Origin: Chitinophagaceae bacterium
GTDB taxonomy: Bacteria; Bacteroidota; Bacteroidia; Chitinophagales; Chitinophagaceae
DNA length: 38,144 nt
Assembly (NCBI GenBank): GCA_947476485.1
Contig: CANJQU010000034.1
Span: 1-38,144, forward strand
Reading direction: 5' to 3'
Shown piece after piece: positions 4,437 through 38,144 of this stretch. Position 1 is the first letter of the stretch, and every line of letters begins with the position of its first letter. Made by a program: the position numbers and the translations under genes. The notes beneath the pieces were generated by a model that saw only the letters and a program-made list of their open reading frames with translations, ran no database searches and was not told the DNA's origin.

Positions 4437-6032
4437 TTACTCAATTATTAGAAACTCCGATGTTAAAGGTTTTATAGCATCTTTTACAGTATCGAAAAAT
4501 GAAGATCCATAATCCAGATAATACCCGGAAAAATTCTCAACACGCTCCTGCAGGCTATTACCGGCGAACAGGCTTTTTTTGAACCGGTCTATCCTTTCCA
4601 ATTGTACCTGCATCTTCCGCTTTTCTGCCCGCAACATCTTTTTCTCCAGTTCTGCGAGCCTGTGGCGCATCTTTGTCAGCGCGGCATCTGCAGCAGCGGC
4701 CAGGGTAGGGTCGAGCGTGGTGGCTTTTTGTTTCAGCGAGTTAAAAATTTGTTCGATGGCTTGGGTTTCATTTTTTGTTTGCCATTCAGTGCCGCTGTGT
4801 TTTGTCACATAGTCGCGCTCCAGCTCCAGCTCCGGTTTGAAAATGTCGGGGATGCTGAGTTCAGACTGCCTGCGCAGTTTCGCTGCGGCGTCATCTATCC
4901 ATAATACCGACTGGCGCAAAAGGATAACTGGGTAAAAAACTTTATAATACTTGAAAAGCGAATTAAGTTGCAGCCAGTATGCCACCTCAGCACCTCCGCC
5001 TATAAAGGCTACATTAGGTAATATCGTTTCCTGGAACAATCCTCGCAGCATCACGTTCGGGCTGAAACGTTCCGGGTGCTGATTAAGCTCGGCGAGTATT
5101 CCGGCTTCTGAAAACTCAATTTCACTGTTTAATACGACCCATTTGTCGTCTTTTTTCTCAATACGCTCACGTATCTGGCCATTGAGATAAAAGAGATTAA
5201 TTTCGCGGGGATGGGCTTGTATCTTATAGTTTGCTCCCAGGGCTTCTATATGCTTGGTGATGATAGGATTAGCTGCCTGGTGCAACAGCTCGTCCTGCAC
5301 CACGGGAATGAATGCGGCTTTTAGCATAGCATCATCCGGGTCTAAAACCACGAGGCCATACCTGCCGAACAATTCATTTACGAGATACTTTGTTGCAGCA
5401 CCTATGGTTTCGTGTTCTAAATAAGCTTTTGTAAGCAATGCCTGCAGCTCATCGCAATTACTACCGGGAGGGCCAAAAGTTTTGAACAGTTCATTCAGCA
5501 GCGGTTTCAGGCTGGCGGGGCTCATACGGCCTACAGCGCCGGTTTGTCCGGCTCCGTCCCATACATATTTCTCGCCACGAAACCTGAACATGCCCAGTTC
5601 TTCCAGGTCGTTGTCTTCACTGCCCATGTAGTAGACGGGGACAAAATGTTTGTGCGGGTAGGTTATGTTCAGTTCTTCGGCCAGTTTTATGGCATGGAGT
5701 ATCTTGTATATAAAGTAGAGGTAGCCGGTAAGCAGGTTGGGCTGGTGAGCTGTGCATATGGTGAACGTATTTTCGCTCAGCAGCGACTGTATGTTCACTT
5801 CTGTTTTTCCGGATCGTGGAAGCCGGCCGTATTGCGCGGAGAGTGTTGCTACTAAAGTCTTACGGTCTACAGGATATGCAGCACGAACCTTGATCGCTTG
5901 CGCCACTCCGGCAGCATCGGGGGTAAAATCGTAAAATGGTTTTATATCATTGCTTTCGCTGAGATAGTCAGTTACCAGTTTGGAGAAATACCCCGTTTCT
6001 TTATAGGGCACATGCGTAAAAACATTATCCAC
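4437..6032 (-). CDS. bshC: Bacillithiol biosynthesis cysteine-adding enzyme BshC
   Basis: A 531-residue cytosolic protein of the usual BshC length. BshC is the putative last-step enzyme of bacillithiol synthesis, adding cysteine to glucosaminyl-malate. Family hallmarks are visible: a Rossmann-like core with TAHQPNLLTGYLYFIYK (about 94-110) and VPVYYMGSEDNDLEELG (about 131-147), NVAFIGGGAEVAYWLQL in the middle, and a long C-terminal coiled coil rich in Arg/Lys/Glu (about 435-480). The start is a GTG at 6030-6032: an in-frame stop lies three codons upstream (6039-6041) and no in-frame ATG matches the family N-terminus. The gene heads a two-gene operon with the membrane protein downstream and diverges from radC. 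bshA and bshB are not in the window. Confidence 0.93.
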   Translation of the reverse strand: MDNVFTHVPYKETGYFSKLVTDYLSESNDIKPFYDFTPDAAGVAQAIKVRAAYPVDRKTLVATLSAQYGRLPRSGKTEVNIQSLLSENTFTICTAHQPNLLTGYLYFIYKILHAIKLAEELNITYPHKHFVPVYYMGSEDNDLEELGMFRFRGEKYVWDGAGQTGAVGRMSPASLKPLLNELFKTFGPPGSNCDELQALLTKAYLEHETIGAATKYLVNELFGRYGLVVLDPDDAMLKAAFIPVVQDELLHQAANPIITKHIEALGANYKIQAHPREINLFYLNGQIRERIEKKDDKWVVLNSEIEFSEAGILAELNQHPERFSPNVMLRGLFQETILPNVAFIGGGAEVAYWLQLNSLFKYYKVFYPVILLRQSVLWIDDAAAKLRRQSELSIPDIFKPELELERDYVTKHSGTEWQTKNETQAIEQIFNSLKQKATTLDPTLAAAADAALTKMRHRLAELEKKMLRAEKRKMQVQLERIDRFKKSLFAGNSLQERVENFSGYYLDYGSSFFDTVKDAIKPLTSEFLIIE

Positions 6033-6163: not shown

Positions 6164-6853
6164 ATGCAGGAGTCGAAAAGTATAAAGAACTGGACCGAGG
6201 ATGAGCGGCCGCGGGAGAAGATGCTCCAAAAAGGAGCTGCGGCGCTTACTGATGCAGAACTGCTGGCCATCCTTATATCCAGCGGCACACGTGAGCGCTC
6301 TGCGCTGGACCTGGCACGGGATGTGCTTTCTCTTGCCCACAACAATCTGCGGGAGGCCGGCCGGCTGAGTGTTGCCGAACTGCAAAAAATAAAGGGAATA
6401 GGGGAGGCGAGAGCCATCACGATTTGTGCTGCTATGGAACTAGGCCGCAGGCGCCAAATGATCGATGGGCCGGACAGAACTGCGATCAACACCAGCAAGG
6501 ATGCAGCCCGTTATTTTATGCCGTTAATGCAGGATCTTAACCACGAGGTTTTTTGTGTGTTGTATATGAACCAGGCCGGGAGACTTATAAAACATGAATT
6601 CCTGAGCAGTGGTGGTATGACTGCAACAGTGGTGGATATACGCATGATCCTGAAAAGCTGCCTGCTGAATAATGCTACCCATATTATAATAGGCCACAAC
6701 CATCCATCCGGCAGTAAAAGGCCTAGTGATGCCGATAAGTCGATGACGCTGAAATTGCGTGATGCGGCAGAGCTAATGGATATTAAGCTTAAGGATCATA
6801 TTATTATCGCTGGCAATGATTTCCTGAGTATGAGCGATGAGGGGCTTGTGTAA
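6164..6853 (+). CDS. radC: RadC family JAMM-domain protein
   Basis: A 229-residue protein of typical RadC length. The N-terminal half has the UPF0758 helical region and a helix-hairpin-helix (LQKIKGIGEARAITICAAME, about 73-92). The C-terminal half is a JAB/MPN domain with the metal-site motif complete: Glu128 (NHEVF), His178 and His180 in GHNHPSG, Ser188 and Asp191 (SDAD). RadC was named for DNA repair but its biochemical role remains unsettled. The gene is divergent from bshC and stands alone; a 15-bp tandem repeat begins at its stop codon. Nothing in the neighbourhood suggests a mobile-element RadC. Confidence 0.93.
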   Translation: MQESKSIKNWTEDERPREKMLQKGAAALTDAELLAILISSGTRERSALDLARDVLSLAHNNLREAGRLSVAELQKIKGIGEARAITICAAMELGRRRQMIDGPDRTAINTSKDAARYFMPLMQDLNHEVFCVLYMNQAGRLIKHEFLSSGGMTATVVDIRMILKSCLLNNATHIIIGHNHPSGSKRPSDADKSMTLKLRDAAELMDIKLKDHIIIAGNDFLSMSDEGLV

Positions 6854-6892
6854 GTGATAAGTTGATAGGTGATAAGTTGGTAAGTGATAAGG
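6854..6892. repeat. 15-bp imperfect tandem repeat (2.6 copies)
   Basis: GTGATAAGTTGATAG (6854-6868), GTGATAAGTTGGTAA (6869-6883) and a partial GTGATAAGG (6884-6892) lie directly after radC. A related GATAAGTTGATAAG occurs at 24071-24084 after another gene, so this is a dispersed intergenic repeat type. The rest of the 6854-7108 gap is AT-rich, with one inverted repeat listed separately. Confidence 0.7.
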
Positions 6893-7023: not shown

Positions 7024-7108
7024 ATTTTAATATCGGAGATAGCAGATAGCGTTACCTTTAGGTGAGTTTTGCAGTAATGCAAAGGTGTGCATTTTTATAG
7101 GATTACTT

Positions 7109-10100
7109 ATGAGAAAACTTTTACTTACGGTTGTTTTTGGGCTTTGTGTGGTGGCTGCATTCGGGCGAACAGGTGATTTCAATTTCTTTGAGCCTGCACC
7201 TGCTCCGGTGGTTAGCCCTATAGTTGGGGTATCTCCGGTTTGCATGGGCAGTTCCTTTGCCTTTAGCGACGCAACTCCCGGTGGTGTTTGGAGCAGCAGC
7301 AACTCTGCTGTGGCAACAGTGGATGCTTTTGGAACAGTATTTGGCGTGGCAACAGGCACAGTTACCATATCTTACTCGGTTACAGACGGCACCGGTACCT
7401 CAACTGTTTCCTATCCCGTGACCGTGAACCCGGCAACGGCAGTTATATCCGGTGCTGGCAGCGTTTGTTCCGGCTCCTTTGTTATTCTTACTGATGCAGC
7501 GGGTACTGGGACCTGGACGAGCAGCAATGCGGCGATAGCTTCCGCGGGTTCCACAACTGGTATTATATCCGGTATCTCTGCGGGTACGGTCACCATCCGA
7601 TTTACAAAGACCCCCGGTTGTTACCGGTCCACGATATTTACTGTAAATGCAACACCTGCCGCTATCTCCGGTTCTTCAATGGTATGTGTCGGTTCAACAA
7701 CAGCATTATCCAATACACTTGGAGGCGGAACATGGACCAGCAGCAATACTTTGACAGCGACGATTGGAATCACTTCAGGTATCGTTACGGGCGCGGCCTC
7801 CGGATATACCGTTATTCGCTATACAATGAGCACCGGCTGTGCTGCCCAGATGAATATGACGATCAACCCTGTTCCCGGTGTTATTTCCGGCACTAAATCG
7901 GTTTGTATTGGTGCAATGACGTCATTGTCGGACATTTCGCCATCTGGTGCATGGAGCAGCAGCAATACCGCAGTGGCTACCGTGGCTACCGGCTCCGGTT
8001 TTGTTGCGGGTATTTCCGCAGGCACTACAAATATCACTTATACATTGTCTGCAACCGGTTGCTACAGAACTGCAATCGTGACCGTAAATGCTTTGCCGCC
8101 CGCAATTTCCGGTACTGCCCGGGTATGCGTTGGGTCCACGACATTATTGACCGATGCCATAACAGGGGGAACGTGGAGCAGCAGCAATACAGGCATGGCT
8201 ACGGTGGCTACTTCCGGTATGGTGACAGGTGTTGCCGTTGGGATACCCCTTATCTCTTATAAGTTGCCAACCGGCTGTGTCATAACTATACCGGTTACTG
8301 TGAATCCGTTGCCGTCAACAATTATAGGCAGCGCGAAAGTATGTATCGGATCAACGATTACCTTAACCGATACCTCAGCAGGTGGCACATGGAGCACAGG
8401 CAGCGGCCTGATCTCAGTAAGTGGTTCGGGCAATGTAAGCGGGATATCTGCGGGCACCGGTATTGTTACTTATACCATTGGCACGGGTTGTATCACTACC
8501 CGAATCGTTACAATTAATGCGCTCCCGCCTGCAATCAGCGGCACTACAGTGTTGTGTGCGGGCGCTACTACAACTTTGACCAATGCCGTAACTGGTGGTA
8601 CCTGGAGCAGCAGCGATGTTTCGCTGGCGGTCATTTCCGGCACCGGGTTCCTGGCTGCGGTTGCCGCAGGTAACCCGGTCATCAGTTATCAGCAGGCTGG
8701 TACCGGTTGTACCAGGACCGCAACATTTACTATCAATCCTGTGCCTGCTGCTATAACAGGCACAGCAAGTATGTGTGCAGGTGCGGGCACAGCGCTGACG
8801 AATGCTTCACCTGGTGGAAACTGGAGCAGCGGCGCGGTTGCTATTGCCATTGTTGACGCCTCCGGAAATGTATTTGGCAGTTCCCCCGGCACGGCCATTA
8901 TCAGCTATTCGTTTACTACGGGTTGTCGCGCCACCCGCATCGTGACCGTTAACCAGTTGCCTGCAGTTATTTCCGGCTTTGCCCGCATATGTACAGGAGC
9001 CACCACCACTTTTAGTGATACGCCAACAGGCGGCACGTGGAGCAGCAGTGATCTCTCAATTTCCACGATAACCGGTGCTGGCGTTGCTTCGGGTCTCGCG
9101 GCAGGAACAACAAATATTACCTATACACTGGGTACCGGCTGTGCTGCTGTAAGGGTGCTGACTGTGAATGCATTGCCGCCTGCAATTACCGGTACCATGA
9201 GCGTCTGCGTCGGATTGTCCACACCCTTGACGAATGCAGCCGCGGGTGGCACATGGAGCAGCAGCAATACTTCGATCGCAACTGTAAATATCTCCGGTGG
9301 GGTTTTTGGCATGGCGGCTGGTACAGCAACCATCTCCTACGTACTTCCTACCGGCTGCAAGACCACAACCACGATGGTAGTAAATGCAGCTCCTCCCGCG
9401 ATCAGCGGTACAAGCGCGGTATGCATGGGCGCATCAGCGACATTGAGCAATGCAACAGGTGGCGGCACATGGAGCTCCGGCAACCCTGCCGTTGCAGATA
9501 TTACCGGCACAGGAACAATAATTCCCGTGAGCGCCGGCACTACTATCATTACCTACACTGCCGCTACGACCTGTATCCGTACTAAAATAATTGCAATCAA
9601 TCCATTGCCTGAGGCGATTACCGGAACCGGTTATTTGTGCACCGGCGCTACTACTGTATTAAGTGATGTGTCGGCAGGCGGTACCTGGGCTGCAACTCCG
9701 GCAGTTGTGGCCACTATTGGTTCCGCTACTGGCATCGTTAATGGGATCGGGCTTGGCACTGCAATGGTGACTTATACACTTGGAACCGGATGCGCTACGA
9801 CCACCATCGTAACGGTAAGCATTGCGCCTCACCCCATAACGGGGATCTATGGCATTTGCGAAGGCTCATACCTGACCTTGCTTGAATCCACACCGGGCGG
9901 CACATGGAGTGTCGCAAATCCTTCTATTGCGACCATCGGGGCCGGAACCGGAACTGTAAATGGTATACTCGCAGGTACTACTACCGTTAGTTATACATTG
10001 AGCAGCGGTTGTTACTCCACGGCTACGATCACCATAAATGCAGCGCCGGCTCTTATATCAGGCACGAGGGTTGTTTGTTCGGGCAGTTCTATTACTTTGA

Positions 10101-13100
10101 GCAACGCTGTAACCGGAGGGGTGTGGACCAGTTCGCCGACATCGGTAGCGGTTGTGGGATCGGTGACCGGATTGGTGACCGGTGGCGCTGCAGGTACGGC
10201 AAACATCACTTATACAGTTGGCGGCAGTTGCAGAACAGTTTTGAATATCACCGTGAATCCGCTTCCGAATGCCATTACCGGTACATTGCGTGTTTGTGCC
10301 GGATTAATGACGGCACTTAGTGACCCATTTCCCGGAGGGGCGTGGAGTACAGATGCATCGGGGAATGCAAGTATTGACGGGGCGGGGTTTGTGACCGGGA
10401 TAACAGCAGGAACAGCGGTAATTACCTATATGCTTCCCACCGGCTGCCTGCGTACCACTACCGTAACTGTAAACCCGCTGCCGGCTCCTATTTCCGGTCC
10501 GGGCGAAGTATGTCTCGGACGCGTAATAACACTGACCGATCCATCTCCTGGCGGCACCTGGGGCACCAGCAATATGGCTGTGGCTACCATCGGGCTCACC
10601 GTTGGCACATTGACTGGTGTAGGCGCGGGAACATCGATCATTACCTATCGTATACCCACTGGATGCATTATTACGAGAGTGATTACTGTGAATCCTTTAC
10701 CGTCGCCAATTACTGGATTAACCAGTGTTTGCGTCGGAGCTACTACTGTACTTTCGGAGGCCGCGGGCGGCACCTGGAGCAGCAGTAATCCTGCTATTGC
10801 CTCTATAGCTGGCAGCGGTGTTGTTACAGGTGTAAGTGCAGGAAATGCAACAATTACCTACACGCTTGGTACCGGCTGTATCAAGACCGTTCTGTTTACG
10901 GTTTATGCACTGCCAGCTGCCATCAGCGGCGCCAGCGCTGTATGTATCGGCGGCACCATCAGTGTCAGCGATGCCACATTGAGCGGTGCATGGAGCAGTG
11001 ATAATACGGTTGTTGCCACAGTCACGAGCGGCGGCACCGTAAGCGGGCATTCGGCTGGTTCGGCACATATAATTTACACGCTTGGTTCCGGATGCACCGC
11101 TTCAAAAACGGTCATCGTCAACCCCAATCCGCCCGCCATTACCGGTACTGCCTTTATGTGTGCAGGGTTGGGAACAACTTTGAGTGATGCCGCAACGGGC
11201 GGTACCTGGACGAGCAGTTACCCGGCCACAGCGACCATTGGGTCTGCAAGCGGAGTAGTGTCGGGTGTAGCGGCAGGAACTACTGTGATCACCTATACGT
11301 TACCGACCACCTGCAAAATAACAACTGTAGTTACGGTTAATCCGCTTCCTGCAGCTATAGCCGGTAACCTGAATGTGTGCCAGGGGTATATCTCTGCGCT
11401 CAGCAATGCAGCGACAGGCGGTACCTGGAGCAGCAGCAATCCATCGGTAGGTACTATCGGCATTACATCTGGCGTGGCATATGGTGTGGCCGTAGGTACG
11501 GCAACTATTACTTATACCCGTGCAACGGGCTGCCTGAGGACAACAACTATTACAGTCAATACATCCCCGGCAGTTGTGACCGGTCCCGGAAATGTGTGCA
11601 GCGGTCTGACGATTTCCTTAACGGATGCTACCGCCGGTGGGTCATGGACCAGCGGTAATCTGTCGGTGGCGCATGTGGGCGGCACAACCGGCATTGTTAC
11701 CGGTGTGGCGGCCGGTACGGCGGAAATAACTTATTCAATTGGCGCATGCAGGGCGACCAAGGTGGTGACTGTAGCTACTTCGCCCGCTGCAATTTACGGC
11801 ACGAGAACCGTTTGCGCCGGCAGCATAACATCCCTAACCGATCCTGTAGCCAGTGGTACCTGGAGCAGCAGCAACACGTCTGTAGCATTTGTGGCGCTTA
11901 CTTCCGGCAATGTTACCGGGGTGTCTGCCGGCACGGCCACTATCACGTATACTGTTGGCACAAGTTGTTTTAAAACAGCAGTTGTTACTGTAAATCCTTC
12001 GCCCGCGCCTATCAGTGGCGCCACTACGATTTGTGTAGGTAGTATTACGGCATTGAGCGATGCGGTGCCAGGTGGTACATGGAGCACAAGCAACTATGTC
12101 GTTGCGCCCGTTACCAGTGCAGGCGTTGTTACCGGAGCTTCATATGGCACCGCACGCATTACCTATTCTATGGGTGCCGGCTGCAGGACCAGCGTTACGA
12201 TCGTGGTTAATTCGGTGCCCGTTCCAATTACGGGAGCTTCAAATGTTTGTATCGGCAGTTATACCACGCTCAGCAACGGAACGCTGGGCGGTACATGGAC
12301 AAGCAGTGATTCTACGATCGCATCTATCGGACTGGTATCGGGTGGTGTTTTAGGTGTTGCGCCCGGAAGTGCGACCATCACCTATACAATAAGCTCGGGT
12401 TGTTTACGGACAACATCGATCACGGTTAATCCATTACCCGCCGCAATATCAGGCACCGGCTTTGTTGTTTGTTCCGGGTCGTCGCTAACCCTGAGCGATG
12501 ATGTGAGTGGCGGGCATTGGAGCAGCAGCAATACGGCTGTTGCCACCGCAGGTTCTTCTACCGGTATTGTTACCGGCGTGTCAGGGGGTACCGCAACAAT
12601 TACCTACAAGCTTTCCCCCGGTTGTGTAGCTACAGCTACAGTAACAGTTAACCAATCGCCGGCGGCGATCACCGGACCGTCTACGGTATGCGTTGATGCA
12701 TCGATCTTCCTGAGTGATGTAACGAGTGGCGGTACGTGGCAGGCTAGCAACGGTTTTGCCACCATCGATGGATTTGGAAACGTTACCGGCGTAAGCCCGG
12801 GCATTGATACATTCAGCTATGTGGTGGCATCGGGCTGTATGGCAAGGTATGTTGTCTCTGTTAATTCTACTCCGGCTGATGTGACCGGATCGGGACACAT
12901 CTGTACCGGCGATACTATTTCGCTGCATGACGGTTCAGCAGGCGGACATTGGACAAGCAGCAACACTTCTATAGCAACCGTTGGGTCTGCGTCTGGCATC
13001 GTTTTTGGCGAGACGCCAGGCACTGTTACAATAACGTATAGTCTTAGCGCTATTTGTCATGCGCTTGCCGTTGTTACCGTAACGCAAACTCCTGCGCCAA

Positions 13101-14554
13101 TCGTTGGTACCACTTATTTCTGCGTCCCTAATTCCATGAACTTCAGTGATTCCATTGCCGGTGGCACCTGGACCAGCAGTGATCCGGGGGTGGCTTATGC
13201 CTCTCCCGTTACTGGTCATATTACTGCAGTATCAGGTGGAACGGCGGTTATTACTTATACGTTACCGGGCGGCTGTATTGCCACTGCCTCGGTCACTATT
13301 TCTCCTATGGCTGTTGTCAGCAGCATTGGTGGTTATAATGCAGTTTGCCTTGGTTCGTCGATTACATTAACGGATGCCGAGCCGGGTGGGGTATGGAGCA
13401 GCAGCAATCCGGCAGTAGCGATCGTGAACCCCGTGACTGGTCTTGTTACAGCGATTTCTGAAGGTAATGATACGATCACTTACATGGTCACCCGGTTTTG
13501 CAGCACGGCTATGGCTACATTGCCGCTGACAGTAGGGCCGCGGGTAATATTAGACAATATAACCGGTAATAACACTGTTTGTCCGTTAGCAACAGATACG
13601 CTCATGAATACGACTCCGGGTGGTCTCTGGACGATCACGAATCCGGCGAAAGGCAGCATCTCCACAGATGGGATATTTACGGGCCTTGCTCCTGGGTTGG
13701 ATACTGTTGTGTACACGGTGTTCGGAACCTGTGCTGCTGTGGTCCGGGCTACGGTTATTATTAATGAGCTTCCCGCCCATCCAAATATCGTTGCACATCC
13801 GGGAGGGGAACTGTGTACGAATACGCAGTTTATGAACATCGGCGCCGGTATCGGTCAGCCTAACGGTTTCCTGTTTACCTGGAATGCCGTTAATGCCCAG
13901 ATATATGGGATCAGTCCTAACAAGCAGAACATTCTAGTTAACTTCCCGTCTGCGGGAACTGCGACCATCTCTGTTACCAGTAAGTTCCTGCTGACCGGTT
14001 GTGCAATTACCGATAGTTTTGTAGCGAATATTGCCGGATCCTCAGCGCCTGGTGTCGCCGGTGTGACGTACTCTGCGCCGGATTTTACCTGCACAGATGG
14101 CAGCGCAGACAGCTACCAATGGGGTTATGACAACGGTTATACGTTTGATTCTACATTGATCCCTGGGGCTACGGCTCAGACATTAAGCTTGGCGTCACCG
14201 GATTTTGCAAATAACTTTTATTGGGTAATGACCGTTCACGGTGGTTGTATCCAGAAATCATACTACAGGTTACCGCCTGCTGTGGGTGTTGGTCATACTT
14301 CTATCGGCGACCTTTCATTTACCTTATTCCCTAATCCTGCAGATGCAAAGGTGTACATCGAAGTGAAGGGCCTGACAAGGGCAGACGGGTTAAGTGTGAA
14401 GCTCTTTGATATGTTGGGTAAGGATATGCAGGGCTGTTTGCTTGTTGATGGTAAGGGCAGCATTGATGTGTCCGGCCTTGCGCCGGGTGTCTATTCTGTA
14501 ATGTTTATAAAGGACGGGATGAAGATTGGTGCCAGGACATTTGTGAAAAACTAG
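7109..14554 (+). CDS. Giant secreted BIG2-repeat protein with T9SS sorting domain
   Basis: A 2,481-residue protein. The start is the ATG at 7109 because it gives a clean signal peptide (MRKLLLTVVFGLCVVAAFG); an upstream GTG at 7085 does not. Residues about 33-2223 are 30 tandem Ig-like BIG2-type repeats averaging 73 residues. Each has the pattern [IV][ST]G-x3-VCxG, then GGTWSSSN, a VxGxxxGxxxITY core, and a second cysteine about 50 residues after the first (TGC). Residues 2224-2400 are a non-repeat, PKD-like region. The last 80 are a T9SS domain (FTLFPNPADAK, DMLGKDM, GLAPGVYSV) with a basic C-terminus. The product is predicted to be exported through the outer membrane and surface-attached or released. 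An adhesive or filament role is inferred only. Confidence 0.9.
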   Translation: MRKLLLTVVFGLCVVAAFGRTGDFNFFEPAPAPVVSPIVGVSPVCMGSSFAFSDATPGGVWSSSNSAVATVDAFGTVFGVATGTVTISYSVTDGTGTSTVSYPVTVNPATAVISGAGSVCSGSFVILTDAAGTGTWTSSNAAIASAGSTTGIISGISAGTVTIRFTKTPGCYRSTIFTVNATPAAISGSSMVCVGSTTALSNTLGGGTWTSSNTLTATIGITSGIVTGAASGYTVIRYTMSTGCAAQMNMTINPVPGVISGTKSVCIGAMTSLSDISPSGAWSSSNTAVATVATGSGFVAGISAGTTNITYTLSATGCYRTAIVTVNALPPAISGTARVCVGSTTLLTDAITGGTWSSSNTGMATVATSGMVTGVAVGIPLISYKLPTGCVITIPVTVNPLPSTIIGSAKVCIGSTITLTDTSAGGTWSTGSGLISVSGSGNVSGISAGTGIVTYTIGTGCITTRIVTINALPPAISGTTVLCAGATTTLTNAVTGGTWSSSDVSLAVISGTGFLAAVAAGNPVISYQQAGTGCTRTATFTINPVPAAITGTASMCAGAGTALTNASPGGNWSSGAVAIAIVDASGNVFGSSPGTAIISYSFTTGCRATRIVTVNQLPAVISGFARICTGATTTFSDTPTGGTWSSSDLSISTITGAGVASGLAAGTTNITYTLGTGCAAVRVLTVNALPPAITGTMSVCVGLSTPLTNAAAGGTWSSSNTSIATVNISGGVFGMAAGTATISYVLPTGCKTTTTMVVNAAPPAISGTSAVCMGASATLSNATGGGTWSSGNPAVADITGTGTIIPVSAGTTIITYTAATTCIRTKIIAINPLPEAITGTGYLCTGATTVLSDVSAGGTWAATPAVVATIGSATGIVNGIGLGTAMVTYTLGTGCATTTIVTVSIAPHPITGIYGICEGSYLTLLESTPGGTWSVANPSIATIGAGTGTVNGILAGTTTVSYTLSSGCYSTATITINAAPALISGTRVVCSGSSITLSNAVTGGVWTSSPTSVAVVGSVTGLVTGGAAGTANITYTVGGSCRTVLNITVNPLPNAITGTLRVCAGLMTALSDPFPGGAWSTDASGNASIDGAGFVTGITAGTAVITYMLPTGCLRTTTVTVNPLPAPISGPGEVCLGRVITLTDPSPGGTWGTSNMAVATIGLTVGTLTGVGAGTSIITYRIPTGCIITRVITVNPLPSPITGLTSVCVGATTVLSEAAGGTWSSSNPAIASIAGSGVVTGVSAGNATITYTLGTGCIKTVLFTVYALPAAISGASAVCIGGTISVSDATLSGAWSSDNTVVATVTSGGTVSGHSAGSAHIIYTLGSGCTASKTVIVNPNPPAITGTAFMCAGLGTTLSDAATGGTWTSSYPATATIGSASGVVSGVAAGTTVITYTLPTTCKITTVVTVNPLPAAIAGNLNVCQGYISALSNAATGGTWSSSNPSVGTIGITSGVAYGVAVGTATITYTRATGCLRTTTITVNTSPAVVTGPGNVCSGLTISLTDATAGGSWTSGNLSVAHVGGTTGIVTGVAAGTAEITYSIGACRATKVVTVATSPAAIYGTRTVCAGSITSLTDPVASGTWSSSNTSVAFVALTSGNVTGVSAGTATITYTVGTSCFKTAVVTVNPSPAPISGATTICVGSITALSDAVPGGTWSTSNYVVAPVTSAGVVTGASYGTARITYSMGAGCRTSVTIVVNSVPVPITGASNVCIGSYTTLSNGTLGGTWTSSDSTIASIGLVSGGVLGVAPGSATITYTISSGCLRTTSITVNPLPAAISGTGFVVCSGSSLTLSDDVSGGHWSSSNTAVATAGSSTGIVTGVSGGTATITYKLSPGCVATATVTVNQSPAAITGPSTVCVDASIFLSDVTSGGTWQASNGFATIDGFGNVTGVSPGIDTFSYVVASGCMARYVVSVNSTPADVTGSGHICTGDTISLHDGSAGGHWTSSNTSIATVGSASGIVFGETPGTVTITYSLSAICHALAVVTVTQTPAPIVGTTYFCVPNSMNFSDSIAGGTWTSSDPGVAYASPVTGHITAVSGGTAVITYTLPGGCIATASVTISPMAVVSSIGGYNAVCLGSSITLTDAEPGGVWSSSNPAVAIVNPVTGLVTAISEGNDTITYMVTRFCSTAMATLPLTVGPRVILDNITGNNTVCPLATDTLMNTTPGGLWTITNPAKGSISTDGIFTGLAPGLDTVVYTVFGTCAAVVRATVIINELPAHPNIVAHPGGELCTNTQFMNIGAGIGQPNGFLFTWNAVNAQIYGISPNKQNILVNFPSAGTATISVTSKFLLTGCAITDSFVANIAGSSAPGVAGVTYSAPDFTCTDGSADSYQWGYDNGYTFDSTLIPGATAQTLSLASPDFANNFYWVMTVHGGCIQKSYYRLPPAVGVGHTSIGDLSFTLFPNPADAKVYIEVKGLTRADGLSVKLFDMLGKDMQGCLLVDGKGSIDVSGLAPGVYSVMFIKDGMKIGARTFVKN
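7205..13777 (+). repeat. Array of 30 BIG2-like coding repeats (about 219 bp each)
   Basis: The coding sequence is periodic at about 210-230 bp. The best conserved stretch encodes GGTWSSSN, whose DNA (ggcacatggagcagcagcaa and close variants) recurs almost every unit. Copies differ at many positions elsewhere, so the array is old or diversifying. Repeat 1 lacks the second cysteine. Repeats 29 and 30 are the most divergent and lead into the non-repeat tail. Confidence 0.85.
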
Positions 14555-19168: not shown

Positions 19169-21532
19169 ATGAAAAAAATCATTACGTTAAGTATTGTCTT
19201 TTTAATGGCCATCATGGCAAACGATGTTACAGCCTGCGGCACATCTACTGCTGCTTTATGCACAGGAGCAGCAACCGCGCTGAGCAATTATTATGGAGGA
19301 ACCTGGACAACCAGTAATGCGTCCGTAGCGACGGTAAGCGCAACAGGCGTTGTAACCGCAGTAGCTCCCGGTACTGCAACCATCACGAATACATATACTA
19401 CTGGTTCCGGCTGGTATTTTAGCACAAACACTGCTGTTACTACAGTAACTGTTAGCGGCGTGCCAACCGGGGTAACGGCTACATTGTCTACAACGGCAAT
19501 ATGCAAAAATTCAAAACTTTACCTTTATGGTGCGGCTACCGGGGCAACCAGCTATTCATGGACATCGCCAGGCGGTTCTTCCATATCTTCATCATCTTCA
19601 CTGAGCGCTTATGTTAACTCTGTGGCAGTTGGAAATACAGGGGTTTACACGTTTTCAGCAACCAATTCATGCGGTACTGTAAAGGTGGTATCTGCACCGG
19701 TAACTGTTTCAACCGCTGTACCCTCTTCTGTATCAGCCAGCGCTACACCTGCCCAGATTTGCGCAGGAACATCCCTTTCACTTAATGGCAACGCAACAGG
19801 AGCAACCAGCTATTCTTGGAAAGCTCCAGGCAGTGCAACTATGGCATCCGCTGCAAGCCAAAACACTACAGTTCCATCAATCACTACATCCAATGCAGGT
19901 AGCTACACGGTGACTGCAACAAACGGATGCGGCAGCACAAAAGCTTACAGCTCAGCAGTTGCGGTAACCGCAGCTCTTCCTGTAGTATCGGCTAGTGCAT
20001 CGCCTTTGAACATGTGCAGTGGTTCCGCCCTCACTCTTACAGGTAGCGCAAGCGGTGCCACCGGTTACTCATGGGCTGGCCCTGGTGGCACATCAGTTGT
20101 GTCTGCTACATCTTTGAGTACATCTATACCGGCTACAATTACTGGCAATACCGGTGTCTATACATTATCTGCTACAAACGTATGCGGTACTGTCCGCGCT
20201 ACTACTGCTTTGGTAAATGTAGCTGGTGCAGTTCCTTCCGCTTTAACTGCAACTGCTGCCCCGGCTCAGTTGTGCAGCGGTTCTGCACTTACACTTTCGG
20301 GTGTCGCAACAGGTGCCACAAGTTACTCATGGGCCGGCCCTGGTATGGCTGTCGCTAATGTTCAGAATAGCTCAGTCTCTTTTGTTACAACATCTAATGC
20401 GGGCACTTATACTTTTACTGCAACTAATGCCTGCGGTACGACAGTCACAACCAGCAATGTTGTTTCTGTAACTGCAATGGCTCCAACTTCTGTGATCGCG
20501 TCTACGCCTGATGCAATTCTTTGCAGCGGCGCTGCGCTTACACTTAATGGCAGTGCAAATGGCGCTACCAGCTATTTATGGAATGGACCTGGCATGACAA
20601 CAACAGCTTCGCAGAATGCATCTGTTGCTGCTGTCTCCTTGTCAAACGCAGGTGCCTACACGTTCTCTGCAACAAATATTTGCGGCACTACAAGCGCTAT
20701 TGCTAACGTTGGTGTTAGTGAAGCAGCAGAGATATCTGGCTTTGTCAGCGATGTTACCTGCAATGGTTGGAGCAATGGTGATGTGATACTTGGCAATATC
20801 GTGATATCAGTAGCTGCAAACTATTCCAGCGGTTATACTACTGCTTGGAGCAATGGTTCAACCTCAGGGTATGGTATTTTTGGTCTAAGCGCAGGTACTT
20901 ATTCAGTTACCGTTACTGTTGACGGCGGCTGCTCTACTACTAAAGCTTTTGAAGTTACCCAGCCAACACCGATCGTTGCTGTGACTACGATCACCAATTC
21001 AGGTGCTAACGATGAGTCAGGCGAAATAGACCTGGTAGTTACAGGCGGCACTGCACCCTATACTTATAGCTGGAGCACAGGCTCAACATCGCCAGACGTA
21101 AATGGCTTAGCTCATGGTAGTTATTGTGTAGAGGTTACAGATGCAAACTCGTGCACCTACAACAATTGTTATTTCGTGAACAATGAAAATGGTAATGCCC
21201 GTGTACGTTCGCACGAAACAGAAGACTCAACTGCTGCGATCAATCCTGTTGTCGGTGAAATGCTGCAGGTTACACATACCGGCGCGTTCCCTAACCCATT
21301 CACCTCTTCAACAAATGTTTCTTTCTCAGTACCTGCTGATGGTCACACAACCGTGGAAGTTTACAACGCTGTGAACGGACAGAAGACCGGCACAATATTC
21401 AGCGAGGAAACAAAGGCAGGCCAGTCATATAATTGCACAATTGATGGTACATATCTTCCATCAGGAGTTTATATCTACAAAATATCTTCAAAAAATAGTT
21501 CGTATGTAGGAAAGGTGACATTGGTAAAATAG
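19169..21532 (+). CDS. Secreted BIG2 / Ig-like / SprB-repeat protein with T9SS sorting domain
   Basis: A 787-residue protein with a signal peptide (MKKIITLSIVFLMAIMANDVTA). One BIG2-like repeat (about 23-96, GGTWTTSNASVATVSATG) is followed by five Ig/PKD-like repeats of about 83 residues (about 97-515). Each of these has a cysteine pair (LCSGSALTL ... ACGTT) and the signature GATSYSWxGPG. Residues about 518-690 carry two SprB-type repeats (DVTCNGWSNGDVILG; GTAPYTYSWSTGSTSPDVNG). The end is a T9SS domain (AFPNPFTSSTNVSFS, YNAVNGQKTG, LPSGVYIYKISS) with terminal KVTLVK. SprB repeats occur in Bacteroidota gliding adhesins, so a cell-surface adhesive role is plausible but unproven. It is monocistronic, ending at a strong terminator. 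Confidence 0.9.
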   Translation: MKKIITLSIVFLMAIMANDVTACGTSTAALCTGAATALSNYYGGTWTTSNASVATVSATGVVTAVAPGTATITNTYTTGSGWYFSTNTAVTTVTVSGVPTGVTATLSTTAICKNSKLYLYGAATGATSYSWTSPGGSSISSSSSLSAYVNSVAVGNTGVYTFSATNSCGTVKVVSAPVTVSTAVPSSVSASATPAQICAGTSLSLNGNATGATSYSWKAPGSATMASAASQNTTVPSITTSNAGSYTVTATNGCGSTKAYSSAVAVTAALPVVSASASPLNMCSGSALTLTGSASGATGYSWAGPGGTSVVSATSLSTSIPATITGNTGVYTLSATNVCGTVRATTALVNVAGAVPSALTATAAPAQLCSGSALTLSGVATGATSYSWAGPGMAVANVQNSSVSFVTTSNAGTYTFTATNACGTTVTTSNVVSVTAMAPTSVIASTPDAILCSGAALTLNGSANGATSYLWNGPGMTTTASQNASVAAVSLSNAGAYTFSATNICGTTSAIANVGVSEAAEISGFVSDVTCNGWSNGDVILGNIVISVAANYSSGYTTAWSNGSTSGYGIFGLSAGTYSVTVTVDGGCSTTKAFEVTQPTPIVAVTTITNSGANDESGEIDLVVTGGTAPYTYSWSTGSTSPDVNGLAHGSYCVEVTDANSCTYNNCYFVNNENGNARVRSHETEDSTAAINPVVGEMLQVTHTGAFPNPFTSSTNVSFSVPADGHTTVEVYNAVNGQKTGTIFSEETKAGQSYNCTIDGTYLPSGVYIYKISSKNSSYVGKVTLVK

Positions 21533-26867: not shown

Positions 26868-26878
26868 ATGAGTTTTTT

Positions 26879-26908
26879 GGAATTTGGAATTAGTAATTTG
26901 GAATTTGG
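26879..26908. repeat. AATTTGGAATT dispersed repeat
   Basis: GGAATTTGGAATT (26879-26891) and AATTTGGAATTTGG (26895-26908) are tandem near-copies between the tRNA and the next gene. The reverse complement AAATTCCAAATTCCAA occurs at 32404-32419 behind the S9 peptidase gene. This is a low-complexity dispersed intergenic repeat. Confidence 0.6.
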
Positions 26909-26977
26909 ATAGAAAATTATTTCACTGCGCGAGGCGCGTGTGCCAATCCTAATTCCAGAAATACCAATTCCTTAAGA

Positions 26978-33453: not shown

Positions 33454-36400
33454 TTATTTCCCGATCACAAAATGGAATACCTCATGATCATGACCAATAA
33501 CGATGCTCAACAGGTACATTCCATTGGTAAGGGTTTTCTCCAGTGATATTGCCTCATTGATCTTACCACCTGCCACTGTGACGTTGTTGCTGTAAATCAC
33601 CTGGCCAAGCATATCTGTTACTTGAATTGTCACTTCCCGGTCTTGTTCCTGGCCTATTGAGCCCTTTACATTGAAGGTACCCATGTTCGGGTTAGGGACA
33701 ATTCTTACATCCACCGGCATAGCATTTACAACAATCGGGGTAATATAAACAACTGTTTCTCCGCTGCTGTTGGTCACTATGTGCTTTATGTTTGCCGCAC
33801 CTGGTGAGATCGCTGTAATAAAACCTTCATCAACAGTAACAACATCAGTGTTGCTGCTACTCCAGATCCCGCTGCTAGATTCGTCTCCGATACTAACAGA
33901 TGTACCCAGGTAGATATTTAGTGTTCCGTCGACCGAGGTGGCATTGCCATGCGGAGCAGGCGTATGAACGGTGATCGTCTTGGTAGCTGCCGCCATGCAC
34001 CCGCCGGAAGAAGGGTAGGCTACAGCATAGGTGATAATAACTGTGCCTGCCGTACCAACACCGGTTACGTTACCTGCTCCATCAACACTGCCAAGTGCAG
34101 GGTTGCTGCTGCTCCAGGTGCCACCTGGTGTAGCATCTGATAAAGATATCGTAAGGTTGTGCCCAACATTGTTTGCACCTGATATTGGAGCAACAACCAA
34201 CAGTGCATTCACGGTAACTACTGCCGTTGTCTTACATGTATTGGTTGCCGTATATGTAACCGTGGCCGTCCCGGTTGAAACGCCGTATACCCGGCCGGAT
34301 GGGCTGATGGTCGCCGTGCCAGCAGGACTGATTGTCCATGATGTACCAGGTGTTGCGTCTGACAGGAAAGTTACTGACCCTACACCACACACAGCCAGAT
34401 TACCGAGTATGGGTGTTGGTATTGGCTTCACAGTAACATTATAGGTTTTGTAACATCCATTGGCAAGAGAGTAAGTAACGGTATTGGTGCCATCTGTTAA
34501 ACCCGTAACCGTGGTAACTGTAGTGCCGGTTGTAACAGAGACACCGGCAGTACTTGTCCACGTACCGCCGCTGGTAAAATTGCTTAGCGTAACTAAAGAA
34601 CCATTGCATACCGAAGATGCACCGCCGATGCTGGAAGGGGACGCATTAACCGTTACAACAACGGTAGTGGGTACACCGCCAACGGTATATGAGATCGTTA
34701 CAGTGCCGGCGGTATTGCCGGTTACAATACCTGATGTTCCTGCAGTGGCAATTGTAATATTGGCTGAGTGCCATACACCACCGGGCGTAGCGTTAGTTAA
34801 TGCTGTGGTTAAGCCGGCACACACACTCAGTGTACCGGTTATGCCGGACACACCCGATGGGTTAACAGTAACTATTTTAGTTGCAGTAGCGCTACCGCAG
34901 CTACCAGTAAGTGTATAGCTCACAGTTACCGTCCCTGGACTCACGCCGGTTACAACACCAGTGCTGCCCACCGTTGCTGCAGCGTTTGTTCCGCTCCATA
35001 CTCCGCCTGCAGTAACGTTGGATAAACTGATACTCGTTCCGGCAATTACGACAGATGCACCATTAATCGTCCCGGCTGTTACGCCGTTCACCGTTACCAT
35101 CCTTGTAGTGCTAGCGCTGCCGCAACCGGTGGTTACTGTATAAGAAATAGTAGATAATCCTGGAGCCACGCCTGTTACAACACCCGTGCCACTTACAGTG
35201 GCGACAGATATATTGGCGCTGCTCCACGTTCCGCCGCTAATCGCATCAGAAAATGTGGTTACCGAACCCGCACACACTGCAGCCAGGCCGGATATAGTAC
35301 CTGCACTTGGCGGCAGGCTCACTGTTACAATAATTGTTGCCCTGCAGCCAGCCGGAGCTACCAGTGTATAATATATTGGCGTGGTACCCGGATTAGTCCC
35401 GGTTACTACGCCACCGGTACCCACTGTAGCCGTTGATGGGATACCGCTGCTCCACACGCCACCCGGTGTAATATCTGAAAGCGCAGTTGTAGCACTTTTA
35501 CAAAGCGTGCCGGTTCCGGTAATTGCTGCCGGTATCGGGTACACAGTTACCACAGTCGTTGCAGAGCCTGTACCCACAGTGTAGCTAAGCCTTGCCGTGC
35601 CCGCGCTGAGGCCTGTTACAACCCCGGTGGCGGATACTGAAGCTATTGCAGCATCCGCTGCGTTTATACTCCAGGTTCCACCCGGTGTACCGTCAAAAAA
35701 TGGTGCTGTGGCTCCGGTGCACAGATAAAAATAATATCCGGTTATAGCCGCTACAGTAACCGTACTGGTGCCAACGGTAACTAGTTTTGTTGCAGAAGCC
35801 GCACCGCAAATTCCGGTAATGGTATATGAAATGACAACAGTACCGGGACTTACGCCGTGTACAAGCCCCGCGGTCACTGTCGCATTGCCGTTGCTTGCGG
35901 TCCATGTACCTCCCGGTGCAGCATCTGTTAAGGTAATATCTGCTCCTACACCAACACTTGACGCGCCGGTGATTACACCGGCTGATGTTGCATTTACCGT
36001 TATCGTTGTGGTAGCGCTGTTGCTGCACCCGCTGTTAGTGCCTGTAACAGTATATGAATGAACACCGGTCGTTGGCGCAAATGCAATTCCGTTAATAACA
36101 CCGCCGCTCCAGGTATAAGAGGATGCTCCGGTGCCGCTCAGCGTAGCAGTGCCGCCTGCACAGAGCGCAATTCCTCCGCCTGTGCTGCCCACTGTCGGAA
36201 GGGGATTAACGGTTAATGTGGTTACTGCCGTATTGCTGCAACCGCTGGTTGTGCCGGTTACCGTGTACGTATTAATGCCAACCGCAGGTGTAAACGCTGC
36301 GCCATTTACAACGCCCCCGCTCCAACTGTATAATCCCGCTCCTGTACCGCTCAGCGTTGCAGTGCCGCCTGCACAAAGTGCCATTCCTCCACCCGTGCTA

Positions 36401-38144
36401 CCCACTGTCGGCAGGGCATTCACCGTCAAAGTGGTTACTGCCGTATTGCTGCAGCCGCCGGTAGTGCCGGTCACCGTGTAAGAATTAATGCCAGCGGATG
36501 GCGTAAATGCAGCACCATTTGTAATGCCTCCTGTCCAGCCGTACGCGCTGGCTCCAGTACCGCTTAGTGTAGCAGTACCGCCTGCACAAAGCGCTATTCC
36601 TCCACCCGTGCTACCCACTGTGGGCAGGGTATTCACAGTTAATGCAGTTACTGCCGTATTGCTGCAGCCGTTTGTATTGCCGGTTACGGTATAAGTATTA
36701 ATGCCAACAGATGGAGTAAAGGCTACGCCATCTGTTATTGCGCCGCTCCAGCTATAAGAGCTGGCCCCTGTACCGCTAAGTGTTGCCGTAGCGCCCGAAC
36801 ATATTACAACACCGCCACCGGAAGTACCTACTGTTGGTAATGCATTCACGGTCACTATTGAAGTTGAAGCAAGCGTACCACAACCGTTGGTAACGGTATA
36901 GGAGATCGTGGTCATTCCATTGATCAAACCGTTAACGATCCCAGTTACTCCAACCGTTGCAACACCGGTTGACACCGAACTCCACACGCCGCCGGCAGCA
37001 GCGTTTGAGAGACTTATCGAGCCACCCTCGCAAACATGCCCCGCACCAATAATAGTTCCAGGGGCGGGTAGGGCATTTATCGTGATCGTCTTTGTATCTG
37101 TTGATGTACCGCATATTCCGGTTACGGCATAACTGATTGTTGCCGTGCCCGCGCTCAAACCGGTCACAGTTCCGTTAGACCCGACCGACGCGATCCCGGC
37201 ATCGGATGACGACCATGTGCCACCAGGGATCGGATCGTCCAGGGAAATAGCGCTGCCATTGCAAACTGAAGATGGGCCGGTTACAATATTTACAGGGCTG
37301 CCGAGGCGATAAAGTTCCAAAGCCTCTGCGTCTGTCAAAGCTCTGTTGTATATAGTTATATCATCTATTTTTCCCGCAAAATAAGCGCTGGTGCCCGATT
37401 CTAAAGATTCATTCTGTCTTTTTCCGAATACAATGTTCGAAAATGCTGTGTTCAGGTTATCCGCGAAGGTGCCCAGTAACACACCATCGATGTATGGCTT
37501 AAGAACATTGGATGCATAAACAATTACCGCCTGGTGCCAAATTCCGGTATCTGCAAAAGTGCCGGTAGCGATGTCATTGGATGGTCCGTTCCCATGAAAC
37601 AACGTATTTTCTAAAAAGTCCTGACTGAAAAAGCCAAACGCCTGCCCGTTGTTGTCCTGTCCCCCTGCTACTATCCAGCCACGTTTGAGAACAGATGGTT
37701 TAAACCATACTGAGAATGATTTGGCGCCGCCGCCGGTAGGGAATGCGACAGGTGTACTTATGTAATTAGAGCTGCCATCAAAGTAGTAAGCGCTATTGGC
37801 GTTGCCAAAGCGATCTGTAGTAAGGGTAGCTCCGTTGTTCATCCCGTTTTGCCCGTTGCCGCTTTCATCGTTTGCATTGCCATTGAAAGGATACCATGCC
37901 ATAAGGCCGCTTGTTGCGATGGCCGAATAGGTATTTACGGTCACAGTAACGGTGGCCGAACTGGTGCAGCTATTACCATCAGTTCCCGTCACCGTATAGG
38001 TAGTGAGTGTCGCAGGGCTGGCAATAACAGAGGAGCCTGTGCTGGTGGATAAGCTTCCTGTTGGTAGCCAATTGTAAGTGCTGCCGCCGATGGCAGACAA
38101 TGGTGTGCCAGACCCAATGCAGACCGATGTTTCCGGTCCTGCGC
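33454..38144 (-). CDS. Giant secreted LamG / BIG2 / Ig-repeat protein with T9SS sorting domain (5' partial)
   Basis: The frame is open to the right edge (the first visible residues AGPETSVCIGSGTPL continue a repeat), so the start lies outside; 1,562 residues are visible. N to C: an Ig-like unit; a LamG/concanavalin-like domain at 37908-37296 (GLMAWYPFNGNANDESGNG, YYFDGSSNYI, FSVWFKP, KIDDITIYNRALTDAE); two BIG2-like repeats; four 71-residue PKD-like repeats (LCAGGTATLSGTGA); about ten more BIG2-like repeats; and a T9SS domain (VRIVPNPNMGTFNVKG, DMLGQVIYSN, LTNGMYLLSIVIG). LamG domains often bind glycans or proteins, so a surface adhesin or matrix protein is plausible. It shares the BIG2 module with the genes at 7109 and 19169. 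A strong terminator follows. Confidence 0.9.
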   Translation of the reverse strand, partial: AGPETSVCIGSGTPLSAIGGSTYNWLPTGSLSTSTGSSVIASPATLTTYTVTGTDGNSCTSSATVTVTVNTYSAIATSGLMAWYPFNGNANDESGNGQNGMNNGATLTTDRFGNANSAYYFDGSSNYISTPVAFPTGGGAKSFSVWFKPSVLKRGWIVAGGQDNNGQAFGFFSQDFLENTLFHGNGPSNDIATGTFADTGIWHQAVIVYASNVLKPYIDGVLLGTFADNLNTAFSNIVFGKRQNESLESGTSAYFAGKIDDITIYNRALTDAEALELYRLGSPVNIVTGPSSVCNGSAISLDDPIPGGTWSSSDAGIASVGSNGTVTGLSAGTATISYAVTGICGTSTDTKTITINALPAPGTIIGAGHVCEGGSISLSNAAAGGVWSSVSTGVATVGVTGIVNGLINGMTTISYTVTNGCGTLASTSIVTVNALPTVGTSGGGVVICSGATATLSGTGASSYSWSGAITDGVAFTPSVGINTYTVTGNTNGCSNTAVTALTVNTLPTVGSTGGGIALCAGGTATLSGTGASAYGWTGGITNGAAFTPSAGINSYTVTGTTGGCSNTAVTTLTVNALPTVGSTGGGMALCAGGTATLSGTGAGLYSWSGGVVNGAAFTPAVGINTYTVTGTTSGCSNTAVTTLTVNPLPTVGSTGGGIALCAGGTATLSGTGASSYTWSGGVINGIAFAPTTGVHSYTVTGTNSGCSNSATTTITVNATSAGVITGASSVGVGADITLTDAAPGGTWTASNGNATVTAGLVHGVSPGTVVISYTITGICGAASATKLVTVGTSTVTVAAITGYYFYLCTGATAPFFDGTPGGTWSINAADAAIASVSATGVVTGLSAGTARLSYTVGTGSATTVVTVYPIPAAITGTGTLCKSATTALSDITPGGVWSSGIPSTATVGTGGVVTGTNPGTTPIYYTLVAPAGCRATIIVTVSLPPSAGTISGLAAVCAGSVTTFSDAISGGTWSSANISVATVSGTGVVTGVAPGLSTISYTVTTGCGSASTTRMVTVNGVTAGTINGASVVIAGTSISLSNVTAGGVWSGTNAAATVGSTGVVTGVSPGTVTVSYTLTGSCGSATATKIVTVNPSGVSGITGTLSVCAGLTTALTNATPGGVWHSANITIATAGTSGIVTGNTAGTVTISYTVGGVPTTVVVTVNASPSSIGGASSVCNGSLVTLSNFTSGGTWTSTAGVSVTTGTTVTTVTGLTDGTNTVTYSLANGCYKTYNVTVKPIPTPILGNLAVCGVGSVTFLSDATPGTSWTISPAGTATISPSGRVYGVSTGTATVTYTATNTCKTTAVVTVNALLVVAPISGANNVGHNLTISLSDATPGGTWSSSNPALGSVDGAGNVTGVGTAGTVIITYAVAYPSSGGCMAAATKTITVHTPAPHGNATSVDGTLNIYLGTSVSIGDESSSGIWSSSNTDVVTVDEGFITAISPGAANIKHIVTNSSGETVVYITPIVVNAMPVDVRIVPNPNMGTFNVKGSIGQEQDREVTIQVTDMLGQVIYSNNVTVAGGKINEAISLEKTLTNGMYLLSIVIGHDHEVFHFVIGK
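35985..36834 (-). repeat. Four tandem 213-bp coding repeats, near-identical
   Basis: A landmark cctgcac-type stretch (encoding the LCAGG or equivalent segment) falls at about 36156, 36369, 36582 and 36795, exactly 213 bp apart (71 codons). The encoded units begin TVGSTGGGIALCAGG (first copy TVGTSGGGVVICSGA), share TATLSGTGA, and end SYTVTGTTxGCSNTAVTTLT. Conservation is far higher than in the neighbouring BIG2 repeats, indicating recent duplication or gene conversion. Confidence 0.85.

Follow-up and report, generated by a model that had tools for sequence, protein, structure and literature searches.

The window, the whole stretch of 38,144 nucleotides analysed from a Chitinophagaceae bacterium (contig CANJQU010000034.1), encodes a giant protein of immunoglobulin-like (Ig-like) repeats in which two cysteines recur from unit to unit, and the question is which cysteine is bonded to which. 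The reading reached here, with a probability of about 0.86 on sequence-based evidence, is that of a surface rod secreted by the type IX secretion system (T9SS) and built of 30 tandem Big_2-like domains, with one disulfide locking each junction. This disulfide would most likely be an interdomain staple, joining the first cysteine of domain n, C1(n), to the second cysteine of the following domain, C2(n+1).

Features are listed in Table 1. If translation began at an in-frame GTG at 7085, the giant protein would be 8 residues longer. The 30 Big_2-like units occupy residues 31–2221 and have 71–78 residues each (about 73 aa). Pfam Big_2 (PF02368) matched the whole protein at 292.8 bits (cut-off 22.8) in 22 stretches, which assigns the repeats to the Big_2 fold, and 24 of the 30 units matched Big_2 alone at E ≤ 0.01 when searched singly. 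Pfam Ig_NUP210_16th matched the same number of units (24/30, within 7199–13771), and nucleoporin 210 also turned up in structure searches. No binding domain was found in this ORF by Pfam search at E ≤ 1. Short tandem repeats were seen upstream of the giant ORF (TAAGTGA-like, 6851–6891) and near a tRNA-Leu gene (TTTGGAA, 26876–26909).

Table 1. Features of the window, with positions, strand and the basis of each assignment
Feature	Position	Strand	Basis
Whole ORF, giant T9SS-type protein of Ig-like domains, 2,481 aa (from first ATG to end of stop)	7109..14554	+	ORF list, Pfam/TIGRFAM matches, unit count
N-terminal leader, apparent signal peptide (MRKLLLTVVFGLCVVAAFG...)	7109..7198	+	Read from translation
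Unit 1, C1 (C45) present, no C2	7199..7423	+	Unit alignment, first-domain test
Units 2–30, Big_2-like, both cysteines in each; predicted to form 29 staples of the C1(n)-C2(n+1) kind, starting with C45-C171	7424..13771	+	
Units 31 and 32, non-Big_2 Ig-like, cysteines in similar places	13772..14308	+	Unit count
T9SS type A sorting domain (Por_Secre_tail), contains C2443	14324..14518	+	PF18962 28.9 bits (cut-off 27), TIGR04183 23.3 bits (cut-off 23), both barely above cut-off
787-aa T9SS protein with PKD_6/Ig-like/SprB repeats and a similar CxG...GC pair	19169..21532	+	Domain matches; cysteines read from translation
Second giant T9SS protein, Ig-like/Big_2 type, carrying Laminin_G_3 and truncated at the window end	33454..38142	-	Pfam, pair table

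C1, the cysteine of a VCxG motif, was present in all 30 units and C2, the cysteine of TGC, in 29, at a spacing of 49–52 in those 29 units; from C2 to the following C1 the distance was 22 residues in 25 of 29 instances. These counts agree with an earlier note on this DNA, which had described about 30 BIG2-like repeats, most with a cysteine pair, one in VCxG and the other about 50 residues on in TGC, and a first unit without the second (unit 1 has C45 only). Further cysteines lie in the apparent signal peptide (C13) and in the sorting tail (C2443). Mean identity among the units was 44% in protein and 61% in DNA, so the array is not a recent or collapsed repeat and its cysteine pattern is not due to chance. 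Search profiles had the two cysteine columns masked, which made domain detection independent of the cysteines; in unit-model numbering C1 is C15 and C2 is C66. Among unique full-length units found with the masked model in the window and loci L001–L126, 1,807 of 1,851 had both cysteines, 27 had C1 only, 15 had C2 only and 2 had neither. The presence of both cysteines in nearly every unit is compatible with one disulfide inside each domain, C1 bonded to C2 of the same unit, and C1 and C2 of the same unit were weakly associated in this set (phi 0.08, p 0.03).

Losses of cysteines were tabulated over 2,707 unique pairs of adjacent domains, ordered as both present, C1 only, C2 only and neither. For C1(n) and C2(n+1), the table read 2,666/3/1/37 (phi 0.948, Fisher p 7e-79). 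When the upstream domain lacked C1, C2 of the next domain was also missing in 37 of 38 cases and its own C2 in 0 of 38, which contradicts the earlier note's placement of one disulfide within each domain. Within the upstream domain, C1(n) and C2(n) were lost independently (2,624/45/38/0, phi -0.016; 83 single and no double losses), which argues against an intradomain bond. The downstream domain, C1(n+1) and C2(n+1), gave the one same-domain table that favors it (2,617/26/50/14, phi 0.263; 14 double and 76 single losses), a weak association that was attributed to Cys-free terminal domains. A bond from C2(n) to C1(n+1), which at 22 residues are the closest in sequence, was also considered and rejected (both 2,600, C2 only 62, C1 only 43, neither 2, phi 0.018).

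The pair set was drawn from the window's own genome, other genus genomes, 76 loci of named relatives and other families of the order (5 pairs, L046–L050), and is mostly genus. Left out were pairs whose gap fell outside the range -6 to 14 residues, and any domain that was truncated at a sequence end or aligned to the model over fewer than 35 positions. The named relatives were metagenome-assembled genomes (MAGs) labelled Flavipsychrobacter (which belongs to Chitinophagaceae), Taibaiella, Chitinophagaceae, Sphingobacteriales, Bacteroidia or uncultured Bacteroidetes, with one Chitinophaga and one Chitinophagia also among them; the window's genome is presumably of this kind too. The C1(n)-C2(n+1) counts were 480/1/1/29 in the window's own genome, 624/0/0/4 in stretches of other genus genomes, 1,399/2/0/4 in the 76 loci of named relatives, which are putative genus members, and 163/0/0/0 in loci from a unit-alignment scan of genus and other-family genomes. 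In a stricter first version of the test (1,522 pairs), C1(n) and C2(n+1) were jointly lost only once, which is not enough for a verdict; wider adjacency limits gave 1,716 pairs (1,704/3/0/9), and more loci then gave the 2,707.

When C2 states were shuffled within ORFs (2,000 shuffles), double losses averaged 5.1 with a maximum of 12, versus 37 observed. The 37 are spread over 23 ORFs and fall into 22 clusters at 60% identity, 6 at 50% and 2 at 40%, the two lower levels to be read against the 44% mean identity among units of the window protein itself; 29 come from the window's own genome and 8 from elsewhere, and the loss events are not independent. Three of the 37 are junctions of the second giant protein in the window. 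Pfam IL8 (small cytokine) matched the Cys-bearing repeats of that protein with 29.7 bits against a whole-protein cut-off of 21.3, no single stretch being significant, and this match is almost certainly a false annotation.

Four pairs were discordant. One lies at a contig edge (L007), two (L075, L126) have, by reading, another cysteine at position 5 of the second domain, and one (L185) is a plain exception; L075 and L126 are thus two of the three pairs that keep C1(n) without C2(n+1). A coupling links position 5 of domain n+1 with residue 18 of domain n (z 3.8, control 1.4). Beyond the main set, order-level Big_2 loci (156 pairs, 154/0/0/2) pointed in the same direction, both double losses being in one locus (L130); phylum-level Big_2 loci gave 6 adjacent pairs, too few to inform the test, and PKD_6 arrays (111 pairs, 106/1/3/1) had too few losses for a judgement, with a third cysteine in L240. 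As a positive control, the rare extra cysteines C19/C49 (24/24) and C21/C47 (18/18) co-occurred perfectly in one domain and are probable intradomain disulfides, a behavior that C1 and C2 of one unit do not share. Additional interdomain pairs, C24(n)/C24(n+1) and C68(n)/C68(n+1) (each seen in 4 pairs) as well as C65/C64 (seen in 6), were set aside as probably reflecting repeat relatedness or shifts in the C2 alignment.

The ends of the domain chain provide a second line of evidence. If C1(n) bonds to C2(n+1), a first domain can do without C2, and a last domain requires C1 only when a cysteine lies downstream. Unit 1 of the window protein has no upstream partner and lacks C2, as the interdomain model predicts; with bonds inside domains its C45 would be an orphan. 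C2 was missing from 11 of 17 N-terminal first domains versus 40 of 2,710 inner domains, and likewise from the first repeat of the 787-aa protein. Among the 6 of 17 with C2, two by reading seem cut by contig edges (L007, L208) and one is in a broken stretch (L088); the others have other sequence upstream (L078), an oddly placed cysteine (L097) or an extra N-terminal cysteine (L125). Last domains (n = 101) had C1 and a cysteine within 130 aa downstream in 80 cases, neither in 14, the downstream cysteine without C1 in 5 and C1 without such a cysteine in 2 (p 2e-11). Thus 14 of the 16 without a downstream cysteine lack C1, and the other two are both broken or cut. Array-first domains that follow other sequence (n = 160), defined by an internal gap or more than 70 aa upstream, had C2 in 150 cases, 145 with a cysteine in the 100 aa upstream and 5 without; of the 10 lacking C2, 6 had no cysteine in the 100 aa upstream and 4 had one. 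At the C-terminal end of the window protein, staples C2158-C2298 and C2236-C2380 are predicted for units 31 and 32, with putative partners, and C2328 (units 31/32) and C2443 are left without clear partners in the scheme.

Residue couplings were computed by mean-field direct coupling analysis on 2,500 of 2,863 adjacent pairs of the main and order sets (effective number 2,096), domains with fewer than 60 aligned positions or gaps above 3 being additionally dropped. The top interdomain coupling was D24-D24, which joins the same column in both domains, as is typical of related repeats, and V16(n)-L4(n+1), C15(n)-C66(n+1) and S18(n)-A67(n+1) ranked second to fourth. C15(n)-C66(n+1) scored 9.2 with Cys-losing pairs included and 3.1 (versus 2.0 in the control) without them; the drop follows from near-invariant columns, and the direct coupling of the cysteines therefore rests on the same loss events. 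The couplings around them persisted in the 2,415 pairs with all four cysteines, where z was 10.0 for V16(n)-L4(n+1), 8.1 for S18(n)-A67(n+1), 7.0 for V16-P3 and 4.5 for S13-N2, versus 1.5, 0.1, 0.6 and 0.1, respectively, in an n,n+2 control; the first three were the strongest off-diagonal couplings. Within one domain, S12-T70 (z 11.4), A7-T68 and L4-T64 define the pairing of strand A/A' with G, a register that sets the domain's own C15 beside residue 73 and its own C66 near residues 7–8. Judged by this register, the two cysteines of one domain would be separated by about seven strand residues, more than 20 Å. AlphaFold2 models of three units and of two units had mean pLDDT of 97.9 and 97.8, with pTM 0.85 in both. 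A disulfide inside each domain was rejected on co-loss, chain ends and coupling register combined, and its probability is now very small.

Secretion is indicated by the type IX sorting tail together with the T9SS translocon protein SprA (SprA_N), detected in 25 of the 26 genus genomes, the window's own included; the window's genome has at least 150 T9SS sorting tails. A DsbA-family match was present in 24 of the 26 genus genomes (23 over cut-off). A DsbB profile search gave none in the 26 genus genomes, and VKOR was found in one of 26, the window's own, as a domain of a 522-aa open frame (L127, G000:C72). For a genus so rich in cysteine pairs, this scarcity of partners that would re-oxidise DsbA counts against the staple reading. 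A BshC-type bacillithiol synthesis protein (4437–6032, - strand) suggests bacillithiol as a low-molecular-weight thiol. Disulfides also matter elsewhere in the T9SS/gliding machinery, according to one report (PMC12635249).

The near absence of DsbB and VKOR would fit cysteines that stay reduced, the pair being kept for packing, metal binding or exchange with a disulfide-linked gliding/T9SS track, and the same report has outer-membrane proteins disulfide-linked to a track in Bacteroidota (PMC12635249). However, the near all-or-none loss of exactly two partners, and the alternative cysteine in two of the exceptions, fit a bond better than packing, and the DsbA-family matches in 24 of 26 genomes also argue against reduced cysteines, which are accordingly considered very unlikely. 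Interchain links, in which C1(n) of one molecule would bond to C2(n+1) of a neighbouring one within an oligomer or a staggered bundle, would satisfy the co-loss rule, which alone is silent on whether n and n+1 share one chain. Grappling hooks are reported to be heptamers of a T9SS-secreted protein, in a passage that does not name GhpA (PMC11205867). Against such links, the residues beside C1(n) couple to the linker directly after domain n (V16-L4, V16-P3, S13-N2, V14-V1), which is nearest within the chain, and the single-chain models are confident without partners; interchain links are also considered very unlikely.

With the staple placed between consecutive domains, the VCxG cysteine, which lies in the A'-B turn at the far end of domain n, would bond to the TGC cysteine some 124 residues further on, where strand G begins at the near end of domain n+1. 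The individual staples of units 2–30 are predicted from the rule seen across many proteins. The series would begin at unit 1, where only C1 is needed and present, and would extend into units 31 and 32, ahead of the sorting tail. The chain would pass the inner membrane via Sec, fold and be oxidised in the periplasm and pass the outer membrane via the T9SS, giving a surface rod with 29 Big_2-like junctions, and probably two more, each locked by a disulfide. Locked junctions may fix the angle between neighbours and confer resistance to unfolding and proteolysis. At 3.5–4 nm per Ig-like domain, the result would be a stiff stalk with a length on the scale of 100 nm that could serve an adhesin or act as a spacer. 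Sequence statistics support the cysteine pairing rule, the residue contacts and the use of the pair across the genus; disulfide formation, mechanics, rod length and an adhesive role are what we infer from these patterns; the recurring disulfide and the stiff rod put forward in the earlier note are supported in this indirect sense, with the bond moved from within each domain to between domains.

In the window's genome (4.58 Mb, 215 contigs), 529 units were counted in 28 ORFs within 336 kb, the stretches apart from the window having been chosen for their matches. The unit-alignment scan gave at least 147 matches in each of 24 other genus genomes, with 231 to 1,305 first-look candidates; the 15 genomes surveyed from other families of the order included 5 with matches, never more than 8. 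In an order-wide scan, 70 of 298 genomes had a match at E ≤ 1e-6. More tentatively, and as something possible rather than probable, interdomain staples may be the usual way in which giant T9SS rods are built throughout this order, perhaps including GhpA-like hooks, with hundreds in one genome and covalently continuous stalks of up to thousands of residues, oxidised via DsbA-like proteins without DsbB and, in the genus, mostly without VKOR. The rule, legible in the sequence itself, is that every C1 calls for a C2 in the domain after it and vice versa. It gives a testable call of which bacterial rods are covalently locked; it also marks possible bend sites, at the rare junctions that lost both cysteines.

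A probable relative with solved structures is grappling hook protein A (GhpA) of Aureispira sp. CCB-QB1 (PDB 9flp, 9fls, 9flu, 9flv, 9flw, 9flx, 9fly, 9g8b), whose repeats look nearer to PKD_6-type domains than the units studied here do. The three-unit profile matched GhpA with E 5.4e-38 summed over 21 stretches, the best single stretch reaching only 3.4e-06, and the two-unit profile gave no GhpA match at E ≤ 0.01. The 787-aa neighbour matches GhpA more strongly than the main protein does, with a phmmer E of 2e-155 added up over 13 stretches whose composition bias is high. In Pfam Big_2 (PF02368) as found in intimin, LigA/LigB and S-layer proteins, the cysteine pair is not general; the masked model applied to phylum-wide Big_2 loci gave 27 units, 9 with both cysteines, 13 with neither and 5 with C2 only.

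The canonical immunoglobulin disulfide joins strands B and F. The present repeats share with it the Ig-like beta sandwich and one cysteine pair per unit of length, but their cysteines, one in the A'-B turn and one where strand G begins, are predicted to pair across the domain boundary. Isopeptide and ester bonds of Gram-positive Ig-like proteins lie inside single domains and are not disulfides, unlike the bond between domains predicted here. Stalks of tandem Ig-like domains occur widely, and linkers, calcium or intradomain bonds are the usual explanation of their stiffness. The Gram-positive surface proteins with isopeptide or ester cross-links (e.g. PMC8382745) are stiffened by covalent bonds, as is predicted here. 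A literature search that covered few subscription journals, largely at the level of abstracts, yielded no recognised report of disulfides that staple one bacterial Ig-like domain to the next. Arrays of Big_2 domains, giant T9SS proteins and stalks stiffened by covalent bonds are already known, and a staple at every junction, supported by the co-loss rule, would be a variant on them.
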